A DNA stretch of 28,070 bases from a virus. The notes below the pieces were generated by a model. It was not told where the DNA came from. It was given only the letters and a program-made list of their open reading frames with translations, and did no database searches. The DNA lies in the IMG/VR virus record IMGVR_UViG_3300027969_000352, positions 1 to 28,070 of that record. One strand, written 5' to 3'. This document shows positions 1,026 to 21,760 of this stretch, piece after piece. How positions within the stretch are numbered: position 1 is the first letter of the stretch; every line of letters starts with the position of its first letter. A program made the position numbers and the translations under genes.

Positions 1026-1376
1026 ATGGACAAAAGATTATCTAAAGCTCTAGAGTTTGCCAATTATCGACAAACTCTCGCTATTCAGAGAAAAACTCTT
1101 AAAGAAAAAATCAACGCAAAGTTGACCTACGGTCATGCTGGCGGCCTATTCAAAATCAATCGCGAACTCATTGTATTTGTTCAGATGTTAATTGATCAAG
1201 GCCGTACCGAAAATGTACCGTTTGTTGACGAAAACGGAAATCCAGTACTCGTAGCTGACCTACAGACTTTTAAAGATGAAATCATAGATAGGTATTTTAC
1301 CGCTACCTACGAATACTATGAAGATTATCAAAAAATTAAATCAAGTAGATCTGTTGAAAAGTTATTGGATGTATGA
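1026..1376 (+). CDS. conserved marine T4-like phage protein, function unknown
   Basis: 116 residues, mostly helical, starting MDKRLSKALEFANYRQTL. I recognise the layout (MDKRL-KAL-F-NY near the start, 'VD-NG-PV' in the middle, and a Tyr-rich 'YFTATYEYYEDY' before a final R/S-VE-L) as a small family in marine T4-like phages with no assigned function. The start is supported by CGGAG at 1016-1020, five bases before the ATG. Its TGA overlaps the ATG of the next gene (ATGA at 1373-1376), so translation of the glycosyltransferase run probably couples to it. It could be a virion component, but nothing in the sequence proves that. Confidence 0.65.
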   Translation: MDKRLSKALEFANYRQTLAIQRKTLKEKINAKLTYGHAGGLFKINRELIVFVQMLIDQGRTENVPFVDENGNPVLVADLQTFKDEIIDRYFTATYEYYEDYQKIKSSRSVEKLLDV

Positions 1377-2233
1377 CCAAAGGCGTACTAATATTTGCTC
1401 ACAACAGTCCTGATATTGATTATGGTTTAATGGCCATAATTGCAGGCGGCCTTGCCAAAAAGAATTTAGGTGTTCCTGTAAGTCTTGTAACTGACTTAGG
1501 CACAATATCTTGGTTAGAAGAGTCAGGCACATTGATTAAAGCACAAGAAGTCTTTGATCAAATTATAGAAGTTAACAGACCTTACACTAAGAATGTGAGA
1601 AATCTACACGATGGATTTGAAAGCAAAATTATTCCATTTGTAAATTCAAATAGATACAGCGTTTGGGAACTTAGCCCCTATGACCAAACCTTGCTGATAG
1701 ACAGCGACTATTTAATCTTTTCTAACAAATTAAATGAGTATTGGTCAGTAGATGCTCCAGTGATAATGGGTCACAGTATGACAGACCTTACCGGAGAGCG
1801 TGGCGGCGTACTAGATAGTCGAGTAAGTGAAACTGGTATCCACATGTTTTGGGCAACTACTGTGATGTTTGATAAAAGTGTTGAAAGTCAATTCTTTTTT
1901 AAACTGGTAGATTTTGTCAAAGACAACTATGTTTATTATGCTGACCTATTCCGATTTAATCCTAAACAGTTTAGAAATGACATTGCCTTTAGTGTTGCTA
2001 AACACATTATGAACGGATTTGAAACAGAATTTGCCTACACACTTCCGTCTATCCTTACTGTTTTTGACAAAGATATTTTACATAGTGTTGACAACAATAA
2101 ACTGACTTTTTTAGTTAGTCAGCCACAGGATGTCTCTGCTTTTTGGGCTGCTACAACTAAGGGTACTGATGTTCATATTATGAATAAACAAAGCATAATC
2201 AGAAACGCTGACAGTCTTCTGGAGTTAATATGA
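1373..2233 (+). CDS. glycosyltransferase-like protein (GT-A fold, DSD motif)
   Basis: 286 residues. The N-terminus (GVLIFAHNSPDIDYGLMAII) is a beta strand followed by the 'PDIDY' segment shared with the next gene. Residues 106-114 (TLLIDSDYL) hold a hydrophobic strand ending in DSD (110-112), the place of the metal- and nucleotide-sugar-binding DxD of GT-A enzymes. Further on come a 'RNDIAFSVAKH' segment (201-211), where GT8-like enzymes carry a catalytic-loop Asp, and H268-x3-K272 near the end. The donor and acceptor are unknown. It is joined by ATGA overlaps on both sides. It is a tandem paralogue of the following gene, though much diverged. The fold assignment is from motifs only, so a non-catalytic relative is possible. 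Confidence 0.6.
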   Translation: MTKGVLIFAHNSPDIDYGLMAIIAGGLAKKNLGVPVSLVTDLGTISWLEESGTLIKAQEVFDQIIEVNRPYTKNVRNLHDGFESKIIPFVNSNRYSVWELSPYDQTLLIDSDYLIFSNKLNEYWSVDAPVIMGHSMTDLTGERGGVLDSRVSETGIHMFWATTVMFDKSVESQFFFKLVDFVKDNYVYYADLFRFNPKQFRNDIAFSVAKHIMNGFETEFAYTLPSILTVFDKDILHSVDNNKLTFLVSQPQDVSAFWAATTKGTDVHIMNKQSIIRNADSLLELI

Positions 2234-3066
2234 ACTTTGGTTATTTGATATTTGTAGCAGCCCATCCTGATATTGACTATCTTAAACTAGCCTATGCTCT
2301 GGCCTTAAGTATTAAAAACACACAAAAACAAGGTTACGATCGAGTAGCTTTGGTTATTAACGACAAATCACCAGTTGATAAATTAAAAAGTCCTTGGGTA
2401 TTTGATAAGGTTATAGAATGGCCCGAACAAAAGTTTTGGGATGGCCGTTCGTGGATGGATGAAATAACTCCTTGGGAGCACACCGTTTGTCTAGATGCAG
2501 ATATGCTGTTCCTTAGAGATTACAGCCACTGGATTGATTATTTTATAGAAAACACAGAATTATATGTAGCTAATCGTGCTTACACATTTAGAGGTGAAGT
2601 AGTTACCAGTGATGCTTATCGTAAAGCATTTACCAAAAACGATCTGCCCAATTTATATTCAATGTGGACTTTTTTTAAAAAAGAATGTAGACATGAATTT
2701 TTTGAATTAGCCCGACAGATTTTTATTAACCCTCAGGAATTTAAAAATCTCTATTTAAATAATCACATACCTAAAGTCATAGGAACAGACGAAGCCTTTG
2801 CGTTGTCGGCCAAGCTTCTAGACATTGACTGCGAAATAGCCTACCCTTTAGATTTTCCAAGAGTAGTACATTTAAAACCACAGGTACAAAACTGGCCGTG
2901 GGATGCTGATCGGGTGACCGATCATGTAGGGTTTTATCTTAAGAGCAACGGCAGTTTAAAAATTGGTAATTACCAACAGACTGATATAATTCATTATGTT
3001 GAAAAGGATATTATTACAGATGAATTAATCAGTATCCTAGAGGAGATAGTATGGAAGAACACCTAG
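2230..3066 (+). CDS. glycosyltransferase-like protein (GT-A fold, DAD motif)
   Basis: 278 residues. It starts like its neighbour (YLIFVAAHPDIDYLKLAYAL) and then shows the strand TVCLDADMLFL with DAD at 89-91, a standard GT-A metal-binding motif. 'IGTDEAFALSAKLL' (184-197, Asp 187) and 'VVHLKP' (212-217, His 214) fit the later acceptor/metal positions of GT8-like enzymes. The motif order and spacing are better preserved than in the paralogue at 1373. It overlaps that gene by ATGA and the next gene by 16 bases. Role by context: adds a sugar to a phage or host surface glycan. Donor sugar unknown. Confidence 0.65.
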   Translation: MNFGYLIFVAAHPDIDYLKLAYALALSIKNTQKQGYDRVALVINDKSPVDKLKSPWVFDKVIEWPEQKFWDGRSWMDEITPWEHTVCLDADMLFLRDYSHWIDYFIENTELYVANRAYTFRGEVVTSDAYRKAFTKNDLPNLYSMWTFFKKECRHEFFELARQIFINPQEFKNLYLNNHIPKVIGTDEAFALSAKLLDIDCEIAYPLDFPRVVHLKPQVQNWPWDADRVTDHVGFYLKSNGSLKIGNYQQTDIIHYVEKDIITDELISILEEIVWKNT

Positions 3067-3653
3067 ATCTAGCACCTTTTGACGAATGGATTAAAACCAT
3101 TGAAGTACCTGAAGAAACTTATTTCTTTGAATTTGATAATGAAGGAAATGTTATAGCATTGCATCCAGGTTTTTCTGTTAATAATATTAAAAATAAAATA
3201 CAAGTAGAGTTAGATATTGCATTAGGAATATACGAAAGAGGCGACACCTTAAGACATTATAAAGTAGATATAGTTTCTGGAAAACTCATTAAGGTAAATC
3301 TTGCCTCAATTACTGGTCTTAATAAGATTGACGATGTGTTACACAGAGTTGTTGATAAACGTTGGAGCAATATTACAAAACCTGACATAGCTATAGAATA
3401 CCATAGGCAAGAACTGGTACTGACATTTAAAATTAATCCTTTATTAAAAACTATAGAATGGCAAGGAGATCAAGATATGATATTTTTAATAACTGAGTAT
3501 AATGATCCTAATGTATTAAAAGAAATGATTAGTTTTAATGTTAACGAATTAGTAAAGTATCCACATCGTTTTAAATTAGAGCTATCTCAAAAGTTTAGCA
3601 TTTATACAAGAAGAATTTTTGACAAGTATACATATGAAGACATTAGAACTTGA
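3051..3653 (+). CDS. hypothetical protein in glycosyltransferase run
   Basis: 200 residues with no motif I recognise. It begins MEEHLDLAPFDEWIKTIEVP. The middle has alternating hydrophobic and charged residues typical of a soluble beta-rich protein ('YFFEFDNEGNVIALHPGF'; 'HYKVDIVSGKLIKVN'). There are no Cys residues, signal peptide or membrane segment. The start is well supported: GGAG at 3040-3043, with the start 16 bases inside the end of the previous gene. Translation of the next gene begins inside its end. Sitting between two glycosyltransferase-like genes, it could bind a glycan or serve as a partner protein; this is inference. Confidence 0.55.
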   Translation: MEEHLDLAPFDEWIKTIEVPEETYFFEFDNEGNVIALHPGFSVNNIKNKIQVELDIALGIYERGDTLRHYKVDIVSGKLIKVNLASITGLNKIDDVLHRVVDKRWSNITKPDIAIEYHRQELVLTFKINPLLKTIEWQGDQDMIFLITEYNDPNVLKEMISFNVNELVKYPHRFKLELSQKFSIYTRRIFDKYTYEDIRT

Positions 3654-4512
3654 TATAGTTTTTTTAAGTTATGACGAACCAAACGCTGACCAGCATTATG
3701 CTGATTTGTGTAATAAGGTACCTTGGGCTAAACGTGTACACGGAGTTAAAGGTAGTGATGCCGCACATAAAGCCGCAGCAGAAACCAGCGAAACAGAATG
3801 GGTTATTACTGTTGATGCTGATAACATTGTAGACAATAGATTTTTTAATTTGGAATTTGATCCTAACAATAAAAATATACAAGTTTATAGTTGGCTGGCC
3901 AGAAATCGCATTAACGGATTGCTTTATGGAAACGGTGGCCTAAAGATATGGCGCAAAGATTTTATCCTAAACATGAAAACACACGAAGCTAGCGATAGCG
4001 ATCGTGGCCAGGTAGATTTTTGTTGGGAAGATGGTTATAAACAGTTTTCTGAATGTTACAGTGAAACTGTTATTACAGGAAGCCCATTTCAGGCATGGAG
4101 AGCAGGCTTTCGAGAGGGTGTTAAAATGACTCTATTAGATGGAGTTCGAGTTCCTGCAGATGAAATTCGAGAACGTATATGGTGGCATAATCTTCATAGA
4201 TTAAAAATTTGGTCGACAGTTGGAGCACATGAAGAAAACGGTTTATATGCTATCCATGGAGCAAGGTTAGGACAGTGGATGACCAATTGCACTAAATGGA
4301 ACTATGTTGATGTACGAGACTTTGAAATATTAAAAAACATATATGAACAAAACGTTGATCATAGAAAACTAGAGCATGACATACAGGATCTAGGAGAGAA
4401 AATTAAACAAGGAATGGGATTTGATTATCCTTATTTAGATGTTGATCAAAGCAAGTACACATTAGACCTGTACGAAGAAACAATTAAACTTACAAATACA
4501 TACCTAAGATGA
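3634..4512 (+). CDS. glycosyltransferase-like protein (GT-A, family 2-like)
   Basis: 292 residues from the ATG at 3634. A TTG at 3619 is in frame and cannot be excluded, since neither has a strong Shine-Dalgarno. The order of elements is LDIVFLSYDEPNAD (first strand), 'KRVHGVKGSDAAHKAA', then EWVITVDADNIV with DAD at 61-63, then 'NGLLYGNGGLKIWRKD' and 'SPFQAWRAGFREGVK'. This is the same series as the C-terminal part of the next gene (SYNETNAD, VDADA, NGLLYGYGG, STWRSAFRECVK), so the two are paralogues. DAD fits a metal-dependent GT-A enzyme. It is joined to the next gene by ATGA. Substrates are unknown. Confidence 0.65.
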   Translation: MKTLELDIVFLSYDEPNADQHYADLCNKVPWAKRVHGVKGSDAAHKAAAETSETEWVITVDADNIVDNRFFNLEFDPNNKNIQVYSWLARNRINGLLYGNGGLKIWRKDFILNMKTHEASDSDRGQVDFCWEDGYKQFSECYSETVITGSPFQAWRAGFREGVKMTLLDGVRVPADEIRERIWWHNLHRLKIWSTVGAHEENGLYAIHGARLGQWMTNCTKWNYVDVRDFEILKNIYEQNVDHRKLEHDIQDLGEKIKQGMGFDYPYLDVDQSKYTLDLYEETIKLTNTYLR

Positions 4513-6533
4513 TCTACGATATTTTTTATGTAAGCAAAAAAACCATTAGCGATATTGAATGGAAAAAGTTTTGTGAACGGTTTCCCTCAGCTCAAAAAAT
4601 TGAAAATGTAAACTCTATTGATGATCTTAAAAAGAAATCATTTACTAAATTCTTTTGGCTGGTTTGGGACGATGTTGTAATTGTTGATGATTTTGCATTT
4701 GATTATCGTGTAGATAAATGGGACGAAGATTATGCACATGTATTTAAAAACAGTTGCAACGGAACTGAATCGTATATTTCTGGCGTAGCACTAATACCTA
4801 AAAAAGCAAATATTCTTAAAAAAGAATTTGATTTTAAATTTTATGTTAATAAAAAAGAAATTGATGTTGTTGCTAGTAAGTATCAATACCCTATTAGATA
4901 TATTAGTACCTATGATGAATATTTAAATCTAATAAATGAAAAATCAAAATCTATGTTTTGGTGTGTGTGGCCAGACATTGAACTTGTAGATGACAGCATT
5001 TTTGATTTTTACTTTGATCCTAATGATGGAAAATACAACTATGATCGAAGTGAAAATCATGTGTATAAAAATTCATGCAATGGGGTTGAATCTTATCTAA
5101 GCGGAGTTATACTGTTTTCAACAGAAAAAACAATAAGCAAAAGAGAATTTAATCGCAGATTCTTAGTAGATAAAAAAGAACATGACCTAGTAGTTAGCAA
5201 GTACCGATATCCACGATATGTTATACATAGCTATCAAGAATATCAAGATATTTTAAAAAATGAAACTCAACAGATGTTTTGGTGCGTTTGGCCAGACATT
5301 GAACTTGTAGATGACAGCATTTTTGATTTTTACTTTGATCCTAATGATGGAAAATACAACTATGATCGAAGTATAACTCACATGTTTAAAAATGGGGATT
5401 TCTACGACGGGCTTATGTTAATGAGCAGATCTAAAACACTAACAGCTAAAGAATTTAATTATCGATTTCCAGTTGAAAAGAAAGAATGGAATATACAAGT
5501 ATCAATACCTGTTCCTTTTGAGATTTTTCAAATAAACACGTTTGAAGATTATATTACAACATTACAAAATACTAAAACAGAAATGTTTTGGGTAATCCGT
5601 AATGATGTTGTGTTAGATAAAGATTTTGATTTTAATAGTTATTATGTTCCTGTGTATGATCATTTTCATAGAAACATAACTCACGTATTTAAAAATGGAG
5701 ATTGGTACGACGGTGTTGTATTATATTCTAAAAATTCCCCTATTACTAAAAAAGAGTTTGATCATAGATTTCCTATAGAAAAAAAACAACACAACATTGT
5801 AGTTAGTAATCCTAAACCGTTTGATATAGTTTTTATTAGTTACAACGAAACTAACGCAGACAAAAATTTTAAAAGATTAACAGATAGGTTTCCTAGAGCC
5901 AAGAGAATAGATGGTGTAAAAGGAATTCATAATGCTCATATTGAAGCAGCAAAGATTGCTACAACAGATATGTTTTGGGTAGTTGATGCAGATGCTATTA
6001 TTATTAAAGATTTTAACTTTGAAATAGATTACATTCCTTATTACAATAGAAACGAAAAAGACATTTTTCTTGACACGGTACACGTTTGGAAAAGTTTAAA
6101 TTTAGTTAACGGATTACTCTATGGTTACGGAGGAGTAAAGTTGCTTCCTAAAAAATTAATCCTTAACATGGATACCAATACCACAGATATGACTACAAGT
6201 TTAAGTAAAAATTTTAAAGTTATGCCTTCGGTTTCTAATGTAACTGAATTCAATACAGATGCATTTAGCACATGGAGGAGCGCATTTCGAGAATGTGTTA
6301 AATTATCCAGTAAAGTAATTGATCAACAATATGATTTAGAAACTGAAGAAAGATTAATAGCTTGGTGTTCACGAGGAGAAGATAAACCGTTTGGCACATA
6401 CTCTATCGCTGGAGCAAAAGCAGGAAAGAAATATGGCGAAGACAATATTAATAATAAAGAAAAATTATCATTAATAAACAATTTTAATTGGTTAGAAGAA
6501 GAATTTTTAAAATGGAAAACAATCAATGAATGA
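4509..6533 (+). CDS. multi-repeat glycosyltransferase: four degenerate GT-A core copies plus one intact copy
   Basis: 674 residues. The C-terminal third (about 437-660) is a full paralogue of the previous gene: FDIVFISYNETNAD, then MFWVVDADA with DAD at 492-494, then NGLLYGYGG and FSTWRSAFRECVK. The first 432 residues are four repeats of about 100 residues. Each has the same strand, but the first Asp of DxD is replaced: FFWLVWDD (48-55), MFWCVWPD (149-156 and 256-263) and MFWVIRND (359-366). Each then runs through 'FDF-Y', 'H-(F/Y)KN', and 'EF--RF-V-KKE---VVS'. The repeats therefore look like copies of the catalytic core that lost metal binding, perhaps used for acceptor binding or spacing. 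Repeats 2 and 3 share an exact 84-base segment. Joined by ATGA upstream and an 8-base overlap downstream. Confidence 0.7.
   Translation: MIYDIFYVSKKTISDIEWKKFCERFPSAQKIENVNSIDDLKKKSFTKFFWLVWDDVVIVDDFAFDYRVDKWDEDYAHVFKNSCNGTESYISGVALIPKKANILKKEFDFKFYVNKKEIDVVASKYQYPIRYISTYDEYLNLINEKSKSMFWCVWPDIELVDDSIFDFYFDPNDGKYNYDRSENHVYKNSCNGVESYLSGVILFSTEKTISKREFNRRFLVDKKEHDLVVSKYRYPRYVIHSYQEYQDILKNETQQMFWCVWPDIELVDDSIFDFYFDPNDGKYNYDRSITHMFKNGDFYDGLMLMSRSKTLTAKEFNYRFPVEKKEWNIQVSIPVPFEIFQINTFEDYITTLQNTKTEMFWVIRNDVVLDKDFDFNSYYVPVYDHFHRNITHVFKNGDWYDGVVLYSKNSPITKKEFDHRFPIEKKQHNIVVSNPKPFDIVFISYNETNADKNFKRLTDRFPRAKRIDGVKGIHNAHIEAAKIATTDMFWVVDADAIIIKDFNFEIDYIPYYNRNEKDIFLDTVHVWKSLNLVNGLLYGYGGVKLLPKKLILNMDTNTTDMTTSLSKNFKVMPSVSNVTEFNTDAFSTWRSAFRECVKLSSKVIDQQYDLETEERLIAWCSRGEDKPFGTYSIAGAKAGKKYGEDNINNKEKLSLINNFNWLEEEFLKWKTINE
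4968..5051 (+). repeat. 84-base exact direct repeat, copy 1
   Basis: Bases 4968-5051 are identical to 5289-5372, in the same reading frame, 321 bases (107 codons) apart. They encode the 28 residues from WPDIELVDD to NYDRS in repeat 2 of the gene. Flanking codons of the two repeats differ at many sites, so identity including synonymous positions points to recent duplication or gene conversion. Confidence 0.95.
5289..5372 (+). repeat. 84-base exact direct repeat, copy 2
   Basis: This is the second copy, in repeat 3 of the 4509-6533 gene. Identity falls off at once on the right (GTGAAAATCAT against GTATAACTCAC). On the left, the preceding 15 bases starting ATGTTTTGGTG differ at two positions. 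Confidence 0.95.
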
Positions 6534-7893
6534 TAGCAATAGCTTAGAAAGAATTAAAAAATTCATACCAATTATGAACGAAATTTCGCCTACTTTCTGT
6601 ATGGCTAAATGGCATCATACTACAATATATCTACAGACGGGAGAAACACACAGTTGCTATCATCCCCGTCCCCATAAAATTCCTTTAAATGAAATTGCAA
6701 TTGATCCTAGTGCATTGCATAATACAGAACAAAAAAAGTTAGAACGATTAGAAATGCTCAACGGAGAAAAACCTAGCGGTTGTCAATATTGCTGGAATAT
6801 TGAAACATTAGGTGAAGACTATATTAGTGATCGAAAAGAACGTAACAGTTCAATATATAGACCTGATCGATTTGAACAAATCAAAAACGGTGATTGGAAT
6901 CAAAATATAAATCCTGAATATATTGAAGTTAGCTTTGGTAATGAGTGCAATTTTAAATGTGGATACTGTCATCCTAAACATAGCAGTGCATACTATAAAG
7001 AGATTAAAGATTTTGGGCCGTATGATATGGTCAAGAATCATCGCAATGACATTGATTGGTTTAAAGTCTATGAAGAAGAAACTAACCCCTATGTTGAAGC
7101 CTGGTGGCGTTGGTGGCCAGAAGTTAGTAAAACTCTAAACATCTTACGCATTACAGGGGGCGAACCACTGTTACAACAAAGTACCTGGCGGCTATTAGAA
7201 GACTTAGATAAAAATCCTAAACCTAATTTAGAGGTAAACATTAATAGTAATTTTGGAATAAAACCTATTCTAATGGAAAGACTAGTAGAACGAGTGAATA
7301 AGTTATTAAGTGAAAAGAAAATTAAAACATTTAAAATGTTTACTAGTTTAGATACTTGGGGAAAACCTGCTGAGTATATTCGTACAGGCTTGAATTTAGA
7401 AGTATGGGAACAAAATTTTCATACCTATATGTCAAAAACAAACCTGCCGTTAACTTTTATGATTACGTTTAATATTTTAACAGTTACTAATTTTCAAGAT
7501 TTGCTTGAAAAATTTTTAGAATGGAGAAAAATATATAAACACCAATCATGGGCCACAGTACGATTTGATACTCCATATTTAAAAGAACCGTTGCAATATG
7601 ATATGAATATCTTACCTAAAGACAAATTTATGCCATATATGTATGCCCATTTAGAATTTATTAAAAACAATATCGATGATAAAAATGTTGAAAAATTTAA
7701 TAGTTTAGAATATGAAAAATTTAGGCGTGTAGTTGATTACATGGAATCTACTGTTTATTCTAAGGAAAAATTAAAAGAAGGACGTCGTGATTTTTATAAT
7801 TGGTTCACAGAATATGATCGCAGACGAGGCACAGATTTTGTCTCTATATTTCCAAAAATGATAGAATTTTATAACAGTTGCAAAGATGAATAA
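6526..7893 (+). CDS. radical SAM protein with N-terminal cysteine-rich (twitch/SPASM-like) region
   Basis: 455 residues. The radical SAM [4Fe-4S] motif is C141-x3-C145-x2-C148 in GNECNFKCGYCHP, followed by the SAM-binding 'ITGGEPLLQQ' around 215. Ahead of the core lie C25 (SPTFCMAKWHH), C44 (HSCYHP) and C86-x2-C89 (SGCQYCW), after a 'KLERLEMLNGEKP' segment. This layout is typical of proteins annotated as twitch-domain radical SAM proteins, in which the extra cysteines hold an auxiliary cluster. The reaction is unknown: peptide, nucleotide-sugar or glycan modification are all possible. It lies within the glycosyltransferase run and overlaps both neighbours by 8 bases, so it should be co-expressed with them. 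Confidence 0.85.
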   Translation: MNDSNSLERIKKFIPIMNEISPTFCMAKWHHTTIYLQTGETHSCYHPRPHKIPLNEIAIDPSALHNTEQKKLERLEMLNGEKPSGCQYCWNIETLGEDYISDRKERNSSIYRPDRFEQIKNGDWNQNINPEYIEVSFGNECNFKCGYCHPKHSSAYYKEIKDFGPYDMVKNHRNDIDWFKVYEEETNPYVEAWWRWWPEVSKTLNILRITGGEPLLQQSTWRLLEDLDKNPKPNLEVNINSNFGIKPILMERLVERVNKLLSEKKIKTFKMFTSLDTWGKPAEYIRTGLNLEVWEQNFHTYMSKTNLPLTFMITFNILTVTNFQDLLEKFLEWRKIYKHQSWATVRFDTPYLKEPLQYDMNILPKDKFMPYMYAHLEFIKNNIDDKNVEKFNSLEYEKFRRVVDYMESTVYSKEKLKEGRRDFYNWFTEYDRRRGTDFVSIFPKMIEFYNSCKDE

Positions 7894-9178
7894 AAAATTA
7901 AATCTAGTATATGAATGGATAGGGCCCAACGGCCCCATAACTAACAATAGGATTCCTACTATATCTGACCTAATGGAAGCATCAGTAGATTATCATTTCC
8001 CCCAAGTAAAGGGAGACCTATTTCAAAAACCGCATTTTCATTCTAGGATTCTTAATTCTAGAATATCTCCAACTTATAAATTACCTGACGAAGTGTTTTT
8101 ATACGAATTAAATTGGACCAATTTTCATTATAGAGATAAATTCCATAATTTTCACAATTCTGACGGCCTCTTTGATAATAATCAAATACATTTTAACGTT
8201 TTAGAACGCATAAGAAATAAAACTGCTTACTTCTTAGTAACACTATTCTATGAAGGATACATGGACGACGAATTTTTAAATCATCTATCTGATTATTTTA
8301 TATCTAAAGGTCTTCCATTGACACAGGTAATCTATCTAAGTAATTGTTACAACGGTACTGAAGTATATGAAGATTATTGTCGTAGAAATCACAAACTGCC
8401 TGAGATACAAATGGAATATTTTCCAGTGTTTAGAATTGATAAATGTAATGTTGGCCCAGCAATAAAAAACTCGTTAATATTAAAATATCAACCCGGACCC
8501 CGTAAAAAAACATTCTTGTGTTTTAATAGAAGATATAATGATCATCGACTAATGTTGTACCTAGCAATGGTGCAATATGGTTTAATCAATCAATGTTACT
8601 ATAGTATGGATAAAACTCAACCAGAAGCTAATAGATCATTTGTTGAAAATTGCAAATATCTTTTAACTCGATTTTCAGATATGGAGTTAACTAGCGAGGA
8701 TGTGTTAGCCGCAGATAAATTATTACCATTGGTATTAGATAATCCTAATTTTAGTCGATACCCTATGGAGGATAGTGTTGATCCTGTACAACATCTTTAC
8801 AACGATTCTTTAATTAATATTGTTACTGAAACATATTTCTTTAATAAAATTATACATATTACAGAAAAAACATATAAACCTATCGCCTTTATGCAGCCTT
8901 TTATATTATTAGGAGCTGCCGGAAGTTTACAACATGTAAAAGATATGGGATTTAAAACTTTTGGAGAATTTTGGGACGAAAGTTACGACCTTGAAAAAGA
9001 CGATAAACTGCGTTTTAAAATGATTATGAATACTATTACATCAATTGCCAGTTGGCCTGATCATGTAAAGATTGATTTTACCTATGCGGTTAAAAATATT
9101 GTTGACTACAATGTAGCTCATTTAAATACAATGCAGGACATTGAGATAGATGACTTTGTGGAAAAATATGGAATATGA
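7886..9178 (+). CDS. putative glycosyltransferase of the 'ITEKT' family (stand-alone copy)
   Basis: 430 residues. Three segments recur in the proteins at 9695 and 13069: 'VIYLSNCYNGTEVYEDYC' (148-165), 'FLCFNRRYNDHRLMLYLAM' (210-228), and 'VTETYFFNKIIHITEKTYKP' (313-332) followed by a Phe-rich strand, 'GAAGSLQ' and 'MGFKTFGEFWDESYD' (354-368). The Glu of ITEKT-(F/Y)-(K/R)-P just before a 'PF-LLG' strand is where fucosyltransferase and exostosin-like GT-B enzymes bind the donor nucleotide. I therefore infer a divergent GT-B enzyme. There is no DxD. No signal peptide or membrane segment is visible. Overlaps: 8 bases upstream, about 11 downstream. Function is inferred from motif resemblance and neighbours. 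Confidence 0.55.
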   Translation: MNKKLNLVYEWIGPNGPITNNRIPTISDLMEASVDYHFPQVKGDLFQKPHFHSRILNSRISPTYKLPDEVFLYELNWTNFHYRDKFHNFHNSDGLFDNNQIHFNVLERIRNKTAYFLVTLFYEGYMDDEFLNHLSDYFISKGLPLTQVIYLSNCYNGTEVYEDYCRRNHKLPEIQMEYFPVFRIDKCNVGPAIKNSLILKYQPGPRKKTFLCFNRRYNDHRLMLYLAMVQYGLINQCYYSMDKTQPEANRSFVENCKYLLTRFSDMELTSEDVLAADKLLPLVLDNPNFSRYPMEDSVDPVQHLYNDSLINIVTETYFFNKIIHITEKTYKPIAFMQPFILLGAAGSLQHVKDMGFKTFGEFWDESYDLEKDDKLRFKMIMNTITSIASWPDHVKIDFTYAVKNIVDYNVAHLNTMQDIEIDDFVEKYGI

Positions 9179-9695
9179 TGCTATGATGACTGTTCCTGAA
9201 ATAATTTTCTTAAAAGAAATAGTTTCAGGTATTCCTCCAGATTCAATAGTATTTGAAATAGGAACAGCAGTTGGCGGATCGGCAACAATAATGGCTCTAG
9301 CTAATCCTAACATTAAAATTTATACAGTTGATTTATTTTCAGTTAACGGAGAAAGCACGGATCTAGTAAACATTGAATATAAAAGAGTTAAAGATATATT
9401 GTCTAAGTATAATAATGTAGAAGTGTTGTGCGGTAATGCACGGTCCGATTTTAACGATTGGAACACAGAAATAGATTTATATTTTGAAGACGGTACACAT
9501 TTTGATCCTGTATTACATGATAATCTTAATCGTTGGTCTTCATTTATAAAAATAGGCGGGTTGTTGTTAATACATGATCACAATGAATTTTGTCCTGATG
9601 TAGAAAAAAATATACAGCAACTGGTTAAATTAAATAACTTTGAAATGGTAAAAACAGTTGGATCTTTAACAATGTTAAAGAAAAAGGAAAAATAA
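9168..9695 (+). CDS. class I SAM-dependent methyltransferase
   Basis: About 175 residues. 'SIVFEIGTAVGGSATIMAL' is SAM-binding motif I (E-x-G-x-x-x-G-x-S). 'KIYTVDLF' gives the acidic residue after strand 2, 'NVEVLCGNARSDF' strand 3/4, and 'IDLYFEDGTHFDPVLHDNLNRW' the acidic strand-4 motif with a following His. 'GGLLLIHDHNEF' closes the fold. This order matches the Methyltransf_24/CmcI-like group, often O-methyltransferases of sugars or small molecules. The ATG at 9168 follows GTGGA by 5 bases. An in-frame ATG at 9150 would add six residues. The stop forms TAATG with the epimerase gene. Likely role: methyl cap or decoration on the glycan made by this unit (inference). Confidence 0.75.
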   Translation: MEYDAMMTVPEIIFLKEIVSGIPPDSIVFEIGTAVGGSATIMALANPNIKIYTVDLFSVNGESTDLVNIEYKRVKDILSKYNNVEVLCGNARSDFNDWNTEIDLYFEDGTHFDPVLHDNLNRWSSFIKIGGLLLIHDHNEFCPDVEKNIQQLVKLNNFEMVKTVGSLTMLKKKEK

Positions 9696-11812
9696 TGAAA
9701 AAAGTATTAGTATGCGGAGCTGGTGGGTTTATCGGAACTCATTTAGTAACTAGTTTAAAGCAGCAAGGATATTATGTTATAGGTGCTGATTTAAAATATC
9801 CTTCATTTAGTAAAACAGATGCAGACGAATTTCACATTGTTGATCTCCGTAATCAAGACGATGTTGCTAAAGTTGTAATAGAAGAACTTTGGTGTATCTA
9901 TCAACTAGCAGCAGATATGGGTGGTGCAGGGTTTATTAGCACCGGCGATAACGATGCTGATATCATGCACAATAGTGCCACAATAAATCTTAATATTCTC
10001 AATGAGATGGTTAAGAAAAAAGTATTTAAAGTTTTTTATACCAGCAGCGCCTGTGTGTACCCCGAATATAATCAATTAGATCCCAACAACCCTCTGTGCA
10101 GCGAAGAAAGTGCATATCCTGCAGAACCAGACAGCGAGTATGGTTGGGAAAAACTATTCAGTGAACGCCTATACCTAAGCTATGCTAGAAATTATCATTT
10201 TATTGTTCGTATTGCTAGACTACACAATGTATTCGGACCACTTGGATCTTGGTGTGATGGTAGAGAAAAAGCACCAGCAGCACTTTGCCGCAAGATAATT
10301 GAAAGTACAGGCGAAGTAGAAGTTTGGGGGCCGGGTAATCAAACTAGAAGTTTTATGTACATTGACGAATGCATTGAAGGTATACATAAAATAGTTAACG
10401 GAGAAACTCAAGGACCTCTTAATCTTGGCAGTGAAAGAATGATTAACATTAATGATCTTGTAATGTTAATTGCTAAGATTGCCGGAAAAAATATTTCAAT
10501 TAAAAACATTGCAGGTCCTCAAGGAGTAATGGGTCGCAATAGCCATAATGATTATATCAAAGGCGTATTAGGGTGGGCCCCCGCTGACACACTAGAGTAC
10601 GGACTAGAAAAGACCTATGCCTGGATTAAAAGTCAAAAAAAGATTTTTAGTAAAACAGGCAAGGTCTATGATCTAAAAGTAAACAAAAATATTGTGGCCC
10701 CATTATCCGAGTGCGAATGTGCGCCCGATACAATTTACTATTTCCATTATTATTATGATTTACATGAAGGCGTTGGCCTAATAGACAGTATGGAAGATAA
10801 ACATTGGGATCATCTACGAACAGATCCCACTGCTAGATTTATCTACGAAAATTGCAACGAAACATTTACATATAAACTAGCACACGATATCAAACAAGTA
10901 ATTGTAGAAAAAAACATTCATCCAGCAAAGCTGTATATAATTGTCATGGACGAAGTTCATAGGAAATTCTTAACTGATAGACTAACTGAACTAGCAGTCT
11001 ACGGAGTTAATATTGGAGTGTTTAACGATCTATTGGCAAAAACACAGATACACGATAATCAACACACTGAACACAAATTCAGTATGCTAAGTAGAAATTA
11101 TCGTCCTTGGAGACTGCACCTATATGCTAAACTGGCGCAGCAGGATCTATTAAAAGACTTCAGATATAGTTTTTACAACATATTCCCCTATGGTGAAGTT
11201 AGATACTTTGACAAAGACACAATGACCAAAGATCTAACGGCACTGAATTTTAAAATAGATTCCACGGTAGACACTTGGTTATCCGGAGTGCCTTATGCAC
11301 TAGATGTTAACGACAATGTTCTAAACAAATGGGGTGATGTAACCTACGATGCAATCCTAAACGCAGATTTTCATATTCTAGTAGAAACACACTACGATGT
11401 GTCTTATTATGTAGATATCAGTAAGGGCAAGTTAAGAGATCTAGCGCCAAGCAGTATAACAGAAAAAACCAATAAGCCCATTGCCTGCGGCAAGCCCTTT
11501 ATTGCATTTTCTACAGCATACTTCTTAGAAGACTTCCGTAGTCTAGGATTTAAAACATTTAGTCCATATATAAACGAATCATACGATCTCGAAGAAGATA
11601 ATCACAAAAGACTGAGTATGATAGTTGCAGAAATAAAAAGAATATCAGAATTACCAAAAGATCAATACGACGATCTGTTGTTTAATTGTCGTTTAATCGC
11701 AACTAAAAACCGTGAAATATTGCTTTCTAAGAAAGACAATAAATCACACAATACATCGTTTGAATTTTTAAGGAGTCATTTTGAGCCACAGTCAAATATA
11801 CAAATTCTTTAA
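9695..11812 (+). CDS. fusion: GDP-mannose 3,5-epimerase (N) + ITEKT-family glycosyltransferase (C)
   Basis: 705 residues. Residues 1-315 match plant GDP-mannose 3,5-epimerase closely. The NAD-binding motif is G8-x2-G11-x2-G14 (CGAGGFIG), then ADMGGAGFI (73-81), SSACVYPE (117-124), Y149-x3-K153 (YGWEK), GREKAPAALCRK (189-200) and QTRSFMYIDEC. The catalytic set known from the plant enzyme (Cys145, Tyr174, Lys178, Lys217) falls exactly on C120, Y149, K153 and K192, so activity on GDP-mannose giving GDP-L-galactose or GDP-L-gulose is likely. After a linker (about 316-345), residues 346-690 carry the ITEKT module: 'SRNYRPWRLHLYAKL' (466-480), 'LVETHYDVS' and 'SSITEKTNKPIACGKPF' (586-602), 'LGFKTFSPYINESYD'. 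The fusion suggests the epimerised sugar is handed to the attached transferase. SD-poor start, coupled by TAATG. Confidence 0.85.
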   Translation: MKKVLVCGAGGFIGTHLVTSLKQQGYYVIGADLKYPSFSKTDADEFHIVDLRNQDDVAKVVIEELWCIYQLAADMGGAGFISTGDNDADIMHNSATINLNILNEMVKKKVFKVFYTSSACVYPEYNQLDPNNPLCSEESAYPAEPDSEYGWEKLFSERLYLSYARNYHFIVRIARLHNVFGPLGSWCDGREKAPAALCRKIIESTGEVEVWGPGNQTRSFMYIDECIEGIHKIVNGETQGPLNLGSERMININDLVMLIAKIAGKNISIKNIAGPQGVMGRNSHNDYIKGVLGWAPADTLEYGLEKTYAWIKSQKKIFSKTGKVYDLKVNKNIVAPLSECECAPDTIYYFHYYYDLHEGVGLIDSMEDKHWDHLRTDPTARFIYENCNETFTYKLAHDIKQVIVEKNIHPAKLYIIVMDEVHRKFLTDRLTELAVYGVNIGVFNDLLAKTQIHDNQHTEHKFSMLSRNYRPWRLHLYAKLAQQDLLKDFRYSFYNIFPYGEVRYFDKDTMTKDLTALNFKIDSTVDTWLSGVPYALDVNDNVLNKWGDVTYDAILNADFHILVETHYDVSYYVDISKGKLRDLAPSSITEKTNKPIACGKPFIAFSTAYFLEDFRSLGFKTFSPYINESYDLEEDNHKRLSMIVAEIKRISELPKDQYDDLLFNCRLIATKNREILLSKKDNKSHNTSFEFLRSHFEPQSNIQIL
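11771..11775 (+). promoter_or_regulatory. strong Shine-Dalgarno AGGAG that fixes a TTG start
   Basis: AAGGAG sits five bases before TTG 11781 inside the end of the epimerase fusion gene. The first in-frame ATG is far downstream, beyond conserved sequence, so TTG is the probable start of the oxygenase. Confidence 0.75.
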
Positions 11813-12485
11813 TGAATTGAATCAGCATTACAGCCCTGCCGAATTAGCAGTAAGCCATGCTGCGGGTTCTCCAGTTCCTTATACGATCATAGACAATTTT
11901 CTACCAGAAGAACTATTCAACACCTTGAGTTTTGAAGTTGATTTCCTTCAGGAAACTGATTGGACTGTGTTCAGCAACGGAACAAGTTATAGAAAAGAGT
12001 GTAGGAACTTTACCAGCACTCCTAGAATACAGTCAATGGCCTACAGTTTTCAAGGAGCCCAATTTCTCAACTGGATAGAGCAGCTGACAGGCATTGACAA
12101 ACTAGTAGGTGATCCACACTATCGTGGCGGCGGTATTACTCGGGTATCTAGCGGAAACAGCCTGGGTCTGCATAATGACTTCAATTGGAATGAGCAGCTT
12201 AGACTTACCCGTCGTGTTAATATAATATTGTATATGAATTCTGAATGGGACGATAGTTGGGGCGGCGATCTAGAATTTTGGGATTTTGATAAAACTCAAT
12301 GTCTAGTTAAAATTGCACCCAAGCCTAACAGATTAGCTATTTGGAATTATGATGAACGCCTAATACACGGACACCCTAATCCTTTAACTTGCCCTGAAAA
12401 TGTAACAAGACAAAATTTTATTCAGTTTTATTATAGTAGTAATGCTACGCATGAAACTCCCCCGCATCGTAGTCAATTTATATAA
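11781..12485 (+). CDS. 2-oxoglutarate/Fe(II)-dependent dioxygenase (prolyl 4-hydroxylase-like)
   Basis: 234 residues, TTG start with AGGAG at the right distance. 'LGLHNDFNW' supplies the iron ligands H131-x-D133. 'WNYDERLIHGHPNPLTCPENVTRQNF' contains the distal ligand H196 and R210, which binds 2-oxoglutarate. This 'H-G-x-P-x-P-L-T-C-P-E---R' signature is typical of the P4H-like 2OG oxygenases common in marine T4-like phages. 'VNIILYMNSEWDDSWGGDLEFWD' gives the core double-stranded beta-helix strands. Substrate unknown: a protein side chain or a glycan are both plausible. It overlaps the epimerase fusion gene by 32 bases and the next gene by one (TAATG). Confidence 0.85.
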   Translation: MSHSQIYKFFNELNQHYSPAELAVSHAAGSPVPYTIIDNFLPEELFNTLSFEVDFLQETDWTVFSNGTSYRKECRNFTSTPRIQSMAYSFQGAQFLNWIEQLTGIDKLVGDPHYRGGGITRVSSGNSLGLHNDFNWNEQLRLTRRVNIILYMNSEWDDSWGGDLEFWDFDKTQCLVKIAPKPNRLAIWNYDERLIHGHPNPLTCPENVTRQNFIQFYYSSNATHETPPHRSQFI

Positions 12486-13069
12486 TGTCAAACTTTCATC
12501 TTAATGCTCAACCTTACTTAGAACAGCTGTCTTATAATAAAGACACAGATATAATATTAGAAATAGGCAGCGACCGCGACGAAGGGTCAACACCGTTTTT
12601 TAATGGATTGTCTGTGGGAACAGAATTACCTTTTTATACTGTTGACATTGTTGACGAAGTTAAACATAAATTTACTCATCTAGAAAACATAAGATGGGAA
12701 ATTAGAGACGGCGCTACCTGGGCTAAAGAAGTTCTGCCAACATTAAATAAAAAAATAAAAGTTTTATATTTAGACAACTATGATTGGTCTAATCCAGGAC
12801 TTAATGCTGACAGGATCAAAGAACAGTATATCAAATATAATATTCAATGGTCAAATTTAGGCAGTCAGGTTGAACATCTTAAACAAATGATCAATTGTTT
12901 ACCCTATATGGCAGAACAATCTTTGATTATCTGTGACGATACACCGTATGTTGAGTCTGCAGGAATATACATAGGTAAGTCTGGCGCGGTAGTTCCCTTT
13001 TTATTGATTCATAATTACAAAATAGTCTATTCGGGCAATAATGGAGTTATACTTTCTAGAGGATTATAA
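12485..13069 (+). CDS. methyltransferase-like protein (Rossmann fold)
   Basis: 194 residues. 'DIILEIGSDRDEGSTPFFNGL' (24-44) resembles SAM-binding motif I followed by the glycine/serine turn of cephalosporin hydroxylase/CmcI-like methyltransferases. 'PFYTVDIVDE' supplies the acidic end of strand 2. 'IKVLYLDNYDWSNPG' and 'SLIICDDTPYV' are later strands ending in acidic residues. Similarity to the methyltransferase at 9168 is limited to the fold, and motif I is less regular here, so a non-methylating relative cannot be excluded. It shares single-base TAATG junctions with both neighbours, indicating coupled translation in the decoration run. Confidence 0.5.
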   Translation: MSNFHLNAQPYLEQLSYNKDTDIILEIGSDRDEGSTPFFNGLSVGTELPFYTVDIVDEVKHKFTHLENIRWEIRDGATWAKEVLPTLNKKIKVLYLDNYDWSNPGLNADRIKEQYIKYNIQWSNLGSQVEHLKQMINCLPYMAEQSLIICDDTPYVESAGIYIGKSGAVVPFLLIHNYKIVYSGNNGVILSRGL

Positions 13070-14277
13070 TGCTTTGTTATTTTGATGATTGCAACAACGT
13101 TAATCTTTCTTATATAGAACAAATTAACAATGTAAGAACCCTACAGGAATTAAAAGAAAGTTTATTGAAGTCAGATTTTACACCTGTATATTCTGATAGC
13201 TATGATTCTCCAGGAATATATCTAATTGAAGTTAGCAAAATACCTAGTCTTTGGTGTGCAAAAATATCGAAGCCTAGTTCAAATATTTTATTAGATATTC
13301 GAAGTAAAGTTATTTCTGCTGTTAAAAATAAAAAATTAAGAATTGTTATTTTGTCAATTGTAGAGGGAGACAATTTTACCAAAGAAGATTTTGATGGGTT
13401 CTTGCATTTGCACAATACTGTTAAACTATTAAGGTTGCCAAAACACGGACTACTAATAATTTCCGGTAACTTGAATGCAAGACAACAATATGCAGACTGG
13501 TGTAATCAACATAATCAAGATGAACTAATAGAATTTCAAGAAGGAATCGAGTGGGACGGAAAAACTTCAAACAATTCTGTACATTTAACACAGCCTGTTA
13601 CTATAAAAGATCATTGCTTACCTTTTAATAGTTTAAACCGTGCTCATAGAAATCATAGAACAGAACATCTATATTTTCTTGCTGAGAATAAATTACAAGG
13701 TCTAGTAAGCGGTGGAGCTTGGTTTAGTACACACAGTATTGATACACCGATATACCAAACAGTAGAATACAATCATTATAAATCTGTATTAACAGCTAAC
13801 TATCCCAAGACTGTAGATGTAGCGGATCTAGTGAACCAAGTACCAAACTTAATTAACAATCTTGAAATATATGAAAATAGTCAACTAACAGTTGTAACTG
13901 AAAGTCATTTTAATCAAACAGGCGGATTGTTTATTACTGAAAAAACATTTAGACCGTTATTAGTAGGTCATCCCTTTGTGATATTAGGGCAAAGCGGCAC
14001 TTTAAGAAAATTAAGAAGCTGGGGATTTATAACTGACTTTGCCGGCCTTGATCAAAGTTATGATGATATTGCCGATGACAGCGACCGATTTTTACAGTTT
14101 CACCAATCTTTAAGAAATTGGTGTGTGCAAGATCCTGAAATTAGACGAACTGCAATTTATAAATGGAATAACACGATCAAACATAATTTCTATCATTATA
14201 AAACTTTAGATTTTAAAAAAATTATGTTTGATCGTGTTATTGACTCAACAGAATCATATTTCATAAAAGATTTTTAG
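13069..14277 (+). CDS. putative glycosyltransferase of the 'ITEKT' family (third copy)
   Basis: 402 residues. It shares the module of the proteins at 7886 and 9695: 'LLIISGNLNARQQYADWC' (128-145), 'LNRAHRNHRTEHLYFLAE' (189-206), 'VVTESHFNQTGGLFITEKTFRPL' with ITEKTF at 289-294, 'GHPFVILGQSGTLRKLRSWGF' and 'LDQSYDD'. The N-terminal 110 residues are not shared. As in the other copies, Glu 291 before a conserved hydrophobic strand is the likely donor-binding residue. It is the last gene of the plus-strand unit, and its final 17 bases overlap the last minus-strand gene tail to tail. A stem-loop follows the stop by eight bases. Confidence 0.55.
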   Translation: MLCYFDDCNNVNLSYIEQINNVRTLQELKESLLKSDFTPVYSDSYDSPGIYLIEVSKIPSLWCAKISKPSSNILLDIRSKVISAVKNKKLRIVILSIVEGDNFTKEDFDGFLHLHNTVKLLRLPKHGLLIISGNLNARQQYADWCNQHNQDELIEFQEGIEWDGKTSNNSVHLTQPVTIKDHCLPFNSLNRAHRNHRTEHLYFLAENKLQGLVSGGAWFSTHSIDTPIYQTVEYNHYKSVLTANYPKTVDVADLVNQVPNLINNLEIYENSQLTVVTESHFNQTGGLFITEKTFRPLLVGHPFVILGQSGTLRKLRSWGFITDFAGLDQSYDDIADDSDRFLQFHQSLRNWCVQDPEIRRTAIYKWNNTIKHNFYHYKTLDFKKIMFDRVIDSTESYFIKDF

Positions 14278-18246: not shown

Positions 18247-18683
18247 TTGTTATTCTTTTTAACAGTTTTAATATCAATAACGCCGGTATTAACAGCGCCT
18301 CCAAAATCTCCGTCAACTACTACATTAGCACATAGTTCACGGAACCAGCGATCTATGATTTCTTCATCGGCATCGCCGTCAAAACCATATCCCTCTTGCT
18401 TTAATTTTAACACAAAATCATCATTCCAGTCAAGCTCAAAAAAACCGTTGCGTATGTTATCTTTGTTAACGTGAGTGTTAAGTACACCTACCCACGGTTC
18501 TTTTAGTTTGGTAGCCCGATCTTTTGGACTTAGTTTAGCAATTTCTTCTGCTTCTTTAGCACGTTCTGCGGCATTGACTGCATCTTCCGCAACTTTTTTA
18601 GCGGCTTCTGCTTGCTTTAGACTTTCTTCAGTTTGGATTCTAAGTTTATCAATGCCAAACAATTTTTCTACAAATTTACGCAT
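18243..18683 (-). CDS. coiled-coil phage protein, function unknown
   Basis: 146 residues from ATG 18683, which forms TAATG with the queE stop; an upstream in-frame GTG at 18695 is less likely. Residues about 15-65 are an Ala/Glu/Lys-rich heptad stretch (ESLKQAEAAKKVAEDAVNAA and on), a long coiled coil. A compact C-terminal domain then contains 'EPWVGVLNTHVN', 'NGFFELDWNDDFVLKLKQEG', 'DEEIIDRWFRELC' and 'GVIDIKTVKK'. I recall this C-terminal type from marine T4-like phages, where it has no defined role. It is joined by ATGA to the exonuclease gene. Confidence 0.65.
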   Translation of the reverse strand: MRKFVEKLFGIDKLRIQTEESLKQAEAAKKVAEDAVNAAERAKEAEEIAKLSPKDRATKLKEPWVGVLNTHVNKDNIRNGFFELDWNDDFVLKLKQEGYGFDGDADEEIIDRWFRELCANVVVDGDFGGAVNTGVIDIKTVKKNNK

Positions 18684-19546
18684 TAGGTTCCCCACTCGTT
18701 TTTAAATAATGGTACCTGAAGCCTATCACTGTATCTTAGTCCTCTAGCCATTGCTAATTCTGCAACACGGCGATTATTTAATGTGTAGACACTTTCAACG
18801 CCACCTACAGGCATTAGATAGATTGGTCCATCAAATCCTGCTTTACGATATGCCCCGATCGCACATTCTGCATCCGCAACATCTTGTTCAGTTGCTACTA
18901 CAAATTTAAGATAAGTGTAACCTACATCCTCGTATTCGTAAATAATAGAAGGACATATAGCATCTTCCCACTTCTCGCCACTGCAAGGTAATTTAGGACT
19001 AACGCTGAATGTAATAGATTCGCACCAAGATTTGTTATTCCGCAATTTCCATTTGTTTAAATAATCTTTAAATTCTAGTGTAAGTTTCTGAGTACCGTTT
19101 GTTTCAAACGTAATCTCTTTAAGCCTATGCATACTATCATGCTCTAATAAATCCGGATAAGCACGTTGCCAACCTAGCAACGGTTCACCACCTGTAATCA
19201 CAAGATGTTCTTCTTCCCAACGCTTGTGAGGAAGTATTTCCATAATGCGATTTACAATACCATTACTTTCCATCATTGGACTAAGATCTTTAAAGCGTGG
19301 ATCCCAGCTAGCATAACTATCACAGCCTGTAGCTACCAGCGGCAAGTCTTTATAATCCGTATAAGGAGTATTACTATGAGCGAAAGAAATATTTTCAACT
19401 TCTGTACTCAGTTCACCACGCGGCATACCAAAGCCTGCACATTTAAAGTTACAACCAAATGTACGTAGGAACACACTAGGCACACCCATATAGCGGCCTT
19501 CACCTTGTATGCTGTAAAACAGCTCTGCAATTTTAATTTTACTCAT
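18683..19546 (-). CDS. queE: 7-carboxy-7-deazaguanine synthase (QueE), phage type
   Basis: 287 residues. QueE converts 6-carboxy-tetrahydropterin to 7-carboxy-7-deazaguanine with a radical SAM cluster. Family marks are 'ELFYSIQGEGRYMGVPSVFLRTFGCNFKC' (here in parts: SIQGEGRYMGVPSVFLR, then TFGCNFKC), ITGGEPLLGW (117-126), FETNGT, and 'FSVSPKL'. The usual C-x3-C-x2-C is altered: C32 and C36 are present, but residue 39 is Phe. The third cysteine appears to be C75 in GCDSYASW, which matches the canonical CDTKYAW after an insertion of about 36 residues. The same arrangement occurs, to my recollection, in other marine T4-like phages, so it is probably functional. It acts with FolE and the QueD-like protein encoded upstream in the same unit. 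Confidence 0.85.
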   Translation of the reverse strand: MSKIKIAELFYSIQGEGRYMGVPSVFLRTFGCNFKCAGFGMPRGELSTEVENISFAHSNTPYTDYKDLPLVATGCDSYASWDPRFKDLSPMMESNGIVNRIMEILPHKRWEEEHLVITGGEPLLGWQRAYPDLLEHDSMHRLKEITFETNGTQKLTLEFKDYLNKWKLRNNKSWCESITFSVSPKLPCSGEKWEDAICPSIIYEYEDVGYTYLKFVVATEQDVADAECAIGAYRKAGFDGPIYLMPVGGVESVYTLNNRRVAELAMARGLRYSDRLQVPLFKNEWGT

Positions 19547-21650: not shown

Positions 21651-21760
21651 AGTGTTACCTCTTGATATTTAGATGCTGGATATCTTTCTTGCAACCATTC
21701 TAACAATCCAGGTTCCCAGGGAAGCTGAATGTCACCTGACCGATTTGTAATTATTCTCAT
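21647..21760 (-). CDS. 37-residue small protein between folE and the next gene
   Basis: ATG 21760-21758 overlaps the folE stop (TGA 21759-21757) and TGA 21649-21647 overlaps the next ATG at 21650, both as ATGA. The protein starts MRIITNRSGDIQLPWEPGLL and ends with a short charged helix (EWLQERYPASKYQEVTL). AGGAG lies 11 bases before the ATG. The exact fit between two genes is the evidence for translation. No family is recognised, and it is too short for a fold assignment. Confidence 0.6.
   Translation of the reverse strand: MRIITNRSGDIQLPWEPGLLEWLQERYPASKYQEVTL

Follow-up and report, generated by a model that had tools for sequence, protein, structure and literature searches.

A GDP-mannose 3,5-epimerase domain fused to a GT-B-fold, glycosyltransferase-type domain in related viral contigs

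The virus record IMGVR_UViG_3300027969_000352 of IMG/VR (the window; 28,070 nucleotides (nt), positions 1 to 28,070 of that record) carries on its + strand an uninterrupted open reading frame (ORF), from ATG to TAA, in which a known sugar-nucleotide enzyme, GDP-mannose 3,5-epimerase (GME), is joined in one chain to a transferase-type domain whose family goes unnamed in the libraries we searched. We give a probability of roughly two in three to the reading that the product, 705 amino acids (aa) long, is a bifunctional glycan-building enzyme, which would make GDP-L-galactose or GDP-L-gulose and transfer the L-sugar, its activities, donor, acceptor and product all being predicted ones. An earlier, sequence-only reading had proposed such a fusion in one continuous frame; the frame is indeed open throughout, with no split near residues 316-345, and the opposite strand in the same register holds many stops.

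The epimerase half and the fusion junction

The N-terminal half is identified as a GME by its sequence and its diagnostic residues, with GDP-L-galactose or GDP-L-gulose as the expected product. Residues 3-314 match five GME sequences of the PDB at E values of 8.8e-88 to 7.4e-87 (phmmer), while UDP-glucuronate decarboxylase, which comes next, reaches 1.8e-22 and is thus weaker by about 65 orders of magnitude; Pfam Epimerase (8.8e-40) and PHROG 540 (9e-76) match as well, and 137 of 304 residues aligned with Arabidopsis GME (PDB 2c59) are identical. The glycine motif of short-chain dehydrogenases/reductases (SDRs; GAGGFIG at 8-14) and the S118/Y149/K153 triad are present. As the sequence-only reading had stated, C120, Y149, K153 and K192 match C145, Y174, K178 and K217 of the Arabidopsis enzyme; R281 likewise maps to R306 in the phmmer alignment, and each of the five is conserved in all 92 further GMEs aligned (80 bacterial, 12 viral). 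In the account of PMC8787198, GME uses Lys as its catalytic base where GDP-fucose synthase uses His, and the residue that acidifies the Cys is Arg in the former and Lys in the latter. Because K192 is a Lys base and R281 an Arg, the N-terminal half follows the rule for GME and not that for GDP-fucose synthase.

Relatives of this half occur in 39 named phage records, all at less than 60% identity. Thirty-four are Synechococcus, Prochlorococcus or cyanophage records (two match at 27% only, one of which is annotated as GDP-L-fucose synthase) and five are marine viruses. About ten of the named phage relatives are annotated as UDP-glucose 4-epimerase, a name that the present comparison suggests is wrong for these cyanophage proteins; that of S-SCSM1 is annotated as GME and is also called so in the account of that phage (PMC9602691).

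The same fused junction is found in 12 other viral contigs (L001-L012; 13 with the window), which are 76-99% identical to the window protein over the best segment and between them bear 11 IMG dataset numbers. The 5' part is missing from L008 and L011 (just the end of the GME is left in L011), and the 3' part from L009 and L012. In 22 other contigs (L017, L018, L090-L097, L101-L103, L105, L109, L132, L334, L340, L342 and L344-L346; the contig end cuts the GME in L103) the GME and the transferase are separate neighbouring genes on one strand. Among ten of these pairs checked base by base, the two genes overlap by 14 nt in seven and by 17 nt in two, and in the tenth, L017, the transferase start was placed by alignment. 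Relative to L090, the window has net one base fewer between the GME end and the transferase start, so that the transferase enters the GME frame beyond the old stop, and in ten of ten fused members checked the transferase ATG has become AAG, AAA or ACA. By sequence, the fusion arose when a net one-base change in the 14-17-nt overlap let the frame pass the epimerase stop, and the transferase ATG was lost. Residues 316-345 are the native N-terminus of the transferase, and we therefore rejected the idea that they are an added linker; the C-terminal domain that the sequence-only reading had placed at residues 346-690 is there, though it begins at 316. Where it could be computed, and with saturation in several of the dS values, dN/dS between fused members is 0.02-0.11 for either half, and by this measure both halves are under purifying selection.

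GME has been fused to a transferase more than once. In a tree of 153 GMEs, made by a quick method with the Shimodaira-Hasegawa-like approximate likelihood ratio test (SH-aLRT) as sole support measure, the fused GMEs form one group of 11 rows with a support of 98. The tree holds 25 of the 80 bacterial GMEs and leaves out short GME stretches (hence L008 and L011), exact duplicates (L002, L004, L010) and near-duplicate unfused sequences; two rows of the fused group labelled as single (L013, L081) are cut ahead of the transferase, and L081 and L080 are pieces of the window. A fusion in the opposite order, with the upstream ITEKT-family transferase in front of the GME, occurs in L022, L348 and L367 (765, 771 and 747 aa). 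These three do not group on the GME tree, and the starred branches force only one origin for them, so the total comes to two or more fusion events, perhaps four. A search of the 80 bacterial GME loci and their flanks of up to 6 kb found no ITEKT transferase (hmmsearch, E <= 1e-3).

The C-terminal domain

No PDB sequence (E <= 10) and no named phage (E <= 0.01) matches residues 321-705, nor does any model of Pfam, of PHROGs (E <= 1) or of NCBIfam (E <= 0.1), and the family profile run against PDB sequences returned three entries of one unrelated protein at E 0.29. An AlphaFold2 model of this half, made with 33 aligned relatives, has a mean predicted local distance difference test score (pLDDT) of 91.7 and a predicted template modelling score (pTM) of 0.89, and has the GT-B fold of two Rossmann-like domains, a glycosyltransferase fold, as the sequence-only reading required of its putative glycosyltransferase. 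In Foldseek the model matches 26 PDB chains at E <= 0.001, every one a glycosyltransferase entry (trehalose-phosphate synthases, SdgB, GtfA, a tetrahydrobiopterin glucosyltransferase and glycogen synthase complexes); with template modelling scores of 0.31-0.44 these matches are distant. The highest Z in VIA-align is for TarM (12.2; 4.8 A over 276 residues), followed by T4 beta-glucosyltransferase and the transferase of phage HY126 (11.5 each), FUT9 (10.9) and the H. pylori fucosyltransferase (10.4). At E <= 0.001 the model also matches 38 predicted viral structures. Most of the best 21 come from uncultured tailed phages and are uncharacterised; one is from a mimivirus-like genome. The fold is thus GT-B, and the family, without a name in any library searched, is probably a new one of phages.

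The sequence-only reading had also seen the ITEKT module standing alone in two other genes of the window, at 7886 and 13069. It does recur there, as a distant relationship only (25% and 17% identity in one alignment), and neither protein has a relative among the named phages. A family profile (A4) found nothing in 12 bacterial genomes, a search that had no positive control, and a scan of genome contigs for the transferase gave 58 stretches, none of which was confirmed.

Ten residues (F462, R473, E564, E590, K591, P601, G618, D631, R639 and N672) are invariant in all 34 family members, the 13 remotest of which are 14-23% identical to the window protein. When aligned by hhalign with 11 bacterial GT10 proteins (found with PF00852; one matches the H. 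pylori fucosyltransferase at 1.1e-41), E564 falls on the GT10 Glu and ITEK on TEK with a score of 37.9 (probability 35%), compared with 20.0 when 12 GT4 proteins are used and a best of 18.0 among 60 column shuffles. An earlier GT10 set (A7), comprising seven of the 11 loci chosen by a TEK-type pattern, had scored 37.5, with 22.8 for GT4 (seven of the 12 proteins; the six GT4 'subsets' were one set of seven, reordered), 14.5 for GME, 16.7 for reversed GT10 and at most 21.5 for 60 shuffles; the repeat took all 11 and all 12. These scores weakly indicate that the TEK segment is locally nearer to GT10 fucosyltransferases than to GT4. We take R195, E239, E249 and K250 of the H. pylori fucosyltransferase to bind the donor, and E95 to be the proposed base. 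By motif order, without superposition, these could correspond to R473, E564, E590, K591 and E389, respectively. We considered filing the C-terminal half as GT10 and rejected it, since a search of the 34 members with the Pfam GT10 model PF00852 gave no match at E <= 1; nor does PF00852 match in the window record, where it should be noted that no control genome matched either.

The top viral structure match to the transferase (BFVD A0A6J5TB28) is a 788-aa protein of an uncultured phage, named UDP-glucose/GDP-mannose dehydrogenase, and hints at another sugar-enzyme fusion. It stays a lead, because among 479 ITEKT-type ORFs in the fetched viral loci (several of which repeat one contig) those longer than 560 aa are only GME fusions and tandem transferases. 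One such tandem, L029:9406-11571 (likewise in L026, L030, L031 and L036), is a pair of ITEKT transferase domains in one 722-aa ORF.

Does the transferase use the product of the epimerase?

In a scan for the transferase only, 32 contigs divide into 12 with the transferase fused to GME, 16 with GME directly upstream, three without GME and one, L140, in which the 5' side is cut; of the 31 contigs with a visible 5' side, 28 thus have GME joined to the transferase or immediately before it, a count that omits six more contigs with separate adjacent genes found by the GME or upstream-transferase scans. This association and the repeated fusion are our chief grounds for believing that the product of GME serves the transferase as donor. 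Residues 316-705, a predicted GT-B-fold transferase with a locally GT10-like donor segment, would take the GDP-L-sugar and move the sugar to an acceptor, probably a glycan of the phage or host surface, to which the neighbouring gene products (two ITEKT proteins, the methyltransferase-like protein and the oxygenase) may contribute too. The benefit of the fusion would most likely lie in a fixed 1:1 dosage and a local supply of donor rather than in a built channel.

Several observations weigh against this reading. No GME was found in the records of L099, L100 and L107 (35, 17 and 62 kb); these may be fragments, and the transferase may accept other donors. L022, L348 and L367 retain the start ATG of the GME, so that a separate GME could still be made. 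In five of ten fused members the transferase part has an in-frame GTG or ATG 18 codons from its beginning, from which a shortened transferase is possible in those members; a start there would remove the first strand of the domain model. As to the C-terminal half, many GT-B families are tied in VIA-align, and its GT10 likeness is local (80-94 columns) at an hhalign probability of only 35%; when the query is limited to the close family and the remote ITEKT relatives are left out, the score falls to 27.7 and the probability to 4%. Finally, the full-length model (pTM 0.55; pLDDT below 50 at residues 317-324 and 328-337) does not fix the relative placement of the domains. With such a score and so uncertain a hinge it gives no support for a built channel, and the 'new kind of sugar channel' of the sequence-only reading is not borne out. 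Plant GME is described as crystallising as a homodimer (PMC8787198), and if the phage domain also dimerises, the fusion would display two transferases.

Among the alternatives, an unlikely but serious one is that the fusion is neutral or affects dosage only, both halves being active while the transferase draws on GDP-mannose or some other donor of the host, with no mechanistic consequence. The short overlap of the unfused pairs examined, in which one indel suffices to give a fusion, the three transferase contigs in which GME was not found and the low model confidence of the hinge region would all fit it. Against it, GME is fused to, or immediately upstream of, the transferase in nearly all contigs of that scan and has been fused to the other neighbouring transferase in at least one further event, and the transferase ATG is replaced in every fused member checked. 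It is improbable that the C-terminal half is GT-B-folded yet no transferase, for example a scaffold domain that binds the acceptor or is inactive, or else a sugar epimerase of GT-B-like fold: a common fold is no proof of function and the domain lacks a family match in Pfam, PHROGs, NCBIfam and PDB sequences, but R473, E564, E590 and K591 stay invariant even in the remotest relatives, and the domain contains the GT10-like segment.

Very improbable, in our judgement, is an SDR of other specificity in the N-terminal half, for example one like GDP-fucose synthase or a UDP-sugar epimerase. The UDP-glucose 4-epimerase annotations of phage relatives would point that way, as would the best NCBIfam model, GDP-L-fucose synthase, which reaches 95 of 500 bits, far under its cut-off; they are outweighed by the gap between GME and the next family in the PDB and by the Lys base and Arg, where GDP-fucose synthase has His and Lys. 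An assembly or sequencing artefact joining two genes, which a run of seven A at the window junction might have caused, has a negligible probability and we rejected it: the run is absent from six of seven junctions printed, the junction recurs across datasets in 13 viral contigs, and the loss of the transferase ATG counts against it. The fusion is genuine, as had been proposed, and conserved.

Beyond the bifunctional enzyme that we favour, a wider picture can be offered only tentatively. The ITEKT proteins would be a new GT-B phage family whose fused members are L-galactosyl (or L-gulosyl) transferases, and GME would have been fused more than once, on either side, since a tethered transferase draws off the epimerase product and thereby makes available an L-sugar that may be missing from the host; the phage would gain an L-sugar coat of its own or a mark on the host surface.

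Neighbouring genes and relation to known systems

The fused ORF (Table 1) sits within a run of + strand genes, 1026-14277, in which a radical SAM protein, a methyltransferase-like protein, the fused GME, a 2-oxoglutarate (2OG)-Fe(II) oxygenase and two more ITEKT proteins can be named; several other genes of the run have no useful match in Pfam, PHROGs or NCBIfam. The radical SAM protein (6526-7893) lies upstream of an ITEKT gene, and by eye a similar frame is likewise placed in L090, L094, L095, L099 and L101. A 674-aa protein at 4509-6533 has, by eye, several apparent repeats of about 100 aa (FWCVWPDIELVDDSIFDF...) and then another domain. The - strand genes include an exonuclease, whose nearest relatives (54%) are in Pseudomonas phages of 284-288 kb, and a QueE-like radical SAM protein and a GTP cyclohydrolase I (18683-19546 and 21757-22497), which are parts of a 7-deazaguanine pathway, possibly one for DNA modification.

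Table 1. Positions of the fused ORF, its domains and candidate functional residues, neighbouring genes and opposite-order fusions (window coordinates unless a contig is given)
Feature	Position	Strand	Basis
Fused ORF, GME plus GT-B-fold glycosyltransferase-type domain, 705 aa	9695..11812	+	Open frame; 12 more viral contigs with same junction
GME domain, extended SDR, residues 1-314	9695..10636	+	phmmer, Pfam, PHROG
C120, catalytic acid (Arabidopsis C145)	10052..10054	+	Cys in 92/92
Y149-x3-K153, SDR YxxxK	10139..10153	+	Alignment
K192, catalytic base	10268..10270	+	Alignment; Lys in GME, His in GDP-fucose synthase
R281 (Arabidopsis R306)	10535..10537	+	Alignment; Arg in GME, Lys in GDP-fucose synthase
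Predicted GT-B-fold domain of ITEKT family, residues 316-705	10640..11809	+	AlphaFold2 model and fold matches
Fusion point K316 (codon AAG), ATG of transferase in unfused relatives	10640..10642	+	DNA comparison
Low-confidence hinge, residues 317-337	10643..10705	+	Full-length model, pLDDT < 50 at 317-324 and 328-337
E389, nearly invariant, after N-domain strand; candidate general base	10859..10861	+	Glu in 32/34
R473; candidate diphosphate contact	11111..11113	+	34/34
E564, invariant Glu	11384..11386	+	34/34
I-T-E590-K591 motif	11456..11467	+	E and K in 34/34; aligns with GT10 TEK (profile alignment)
Upstream ITEKT relative, 430 aa; type fused to GME in opposite order elsewhere	7886..9178	+	
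Methyltransferase-like gene, precedes fusion	9150..9695	+	Pfam Methyltransf_24 1e-8
2OG-Fe(II) oxygenase gene, overlaps 3' end of fusion	11781..12485	+	Pfam 2OG-FeII_Oxy_3 5.7e-15
Third ITEKT relative, 402 aa	13069..14277	+	
Opposite-order fusions	L022:4506-6800, L348:3974-6286, L367:3989-6229		

The phage GME resembles the Arabidopsis enzyme (2c59) and the first bacterial GME (PMC6678494) over the whole N-terminal half and in the diagnostic residues; those enzymes are described as stand-alone, whereas here the GME is fused to a transferase-type domain. Cyanophage GMEs (S-SCSM1 ORF123, as reported in PMC9602691; S-SSM7, P-TIM68 and others) are likewise phage-coded and up to 57% identical, but they too stand alone, and because the C-terminal half is unmatched in the phage collection at E <= 0.01, their records hold no detectable copy of the fused transferase. 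The GT10 alpha-1,3-fucosyltransferases (H. pylori FucT 2nzw, FUT9) share the GT-B fold, and their Glu and TEK segment can be aligned with the C-terminal half, locally and weakly; they differ in the Pfam GT10 signature, absent from all 34 family members searched, and only a short stretch can be aligned. Solved phage enzymes, T4 beta-glucosyltransferase and the HY126 glycosyltransferase, also have the GT-B fold, with 8-11% identity to the C-terminal half over the structural alignment and no closer kinship shown. Among the papers listed by the literature searches, none has a fusion of GME to a transferase in its title or abstract opening.

In summary, related phages carry the predicted maker of a rare sugar and its likely user in one chain, by way of overlapping genes that have run together. 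If the bifunctional reading is true, a single natural protein would lead from common GDP-mannose to an L-galactosylated product, and would provide a first clue to the donor specificity of a phage transferase family that is unnamed in the libraries searched. Furthermore, the fused and unfused contigs together offer a base-by-base view of overlapping phage genes turning into a two-domain enzyme.
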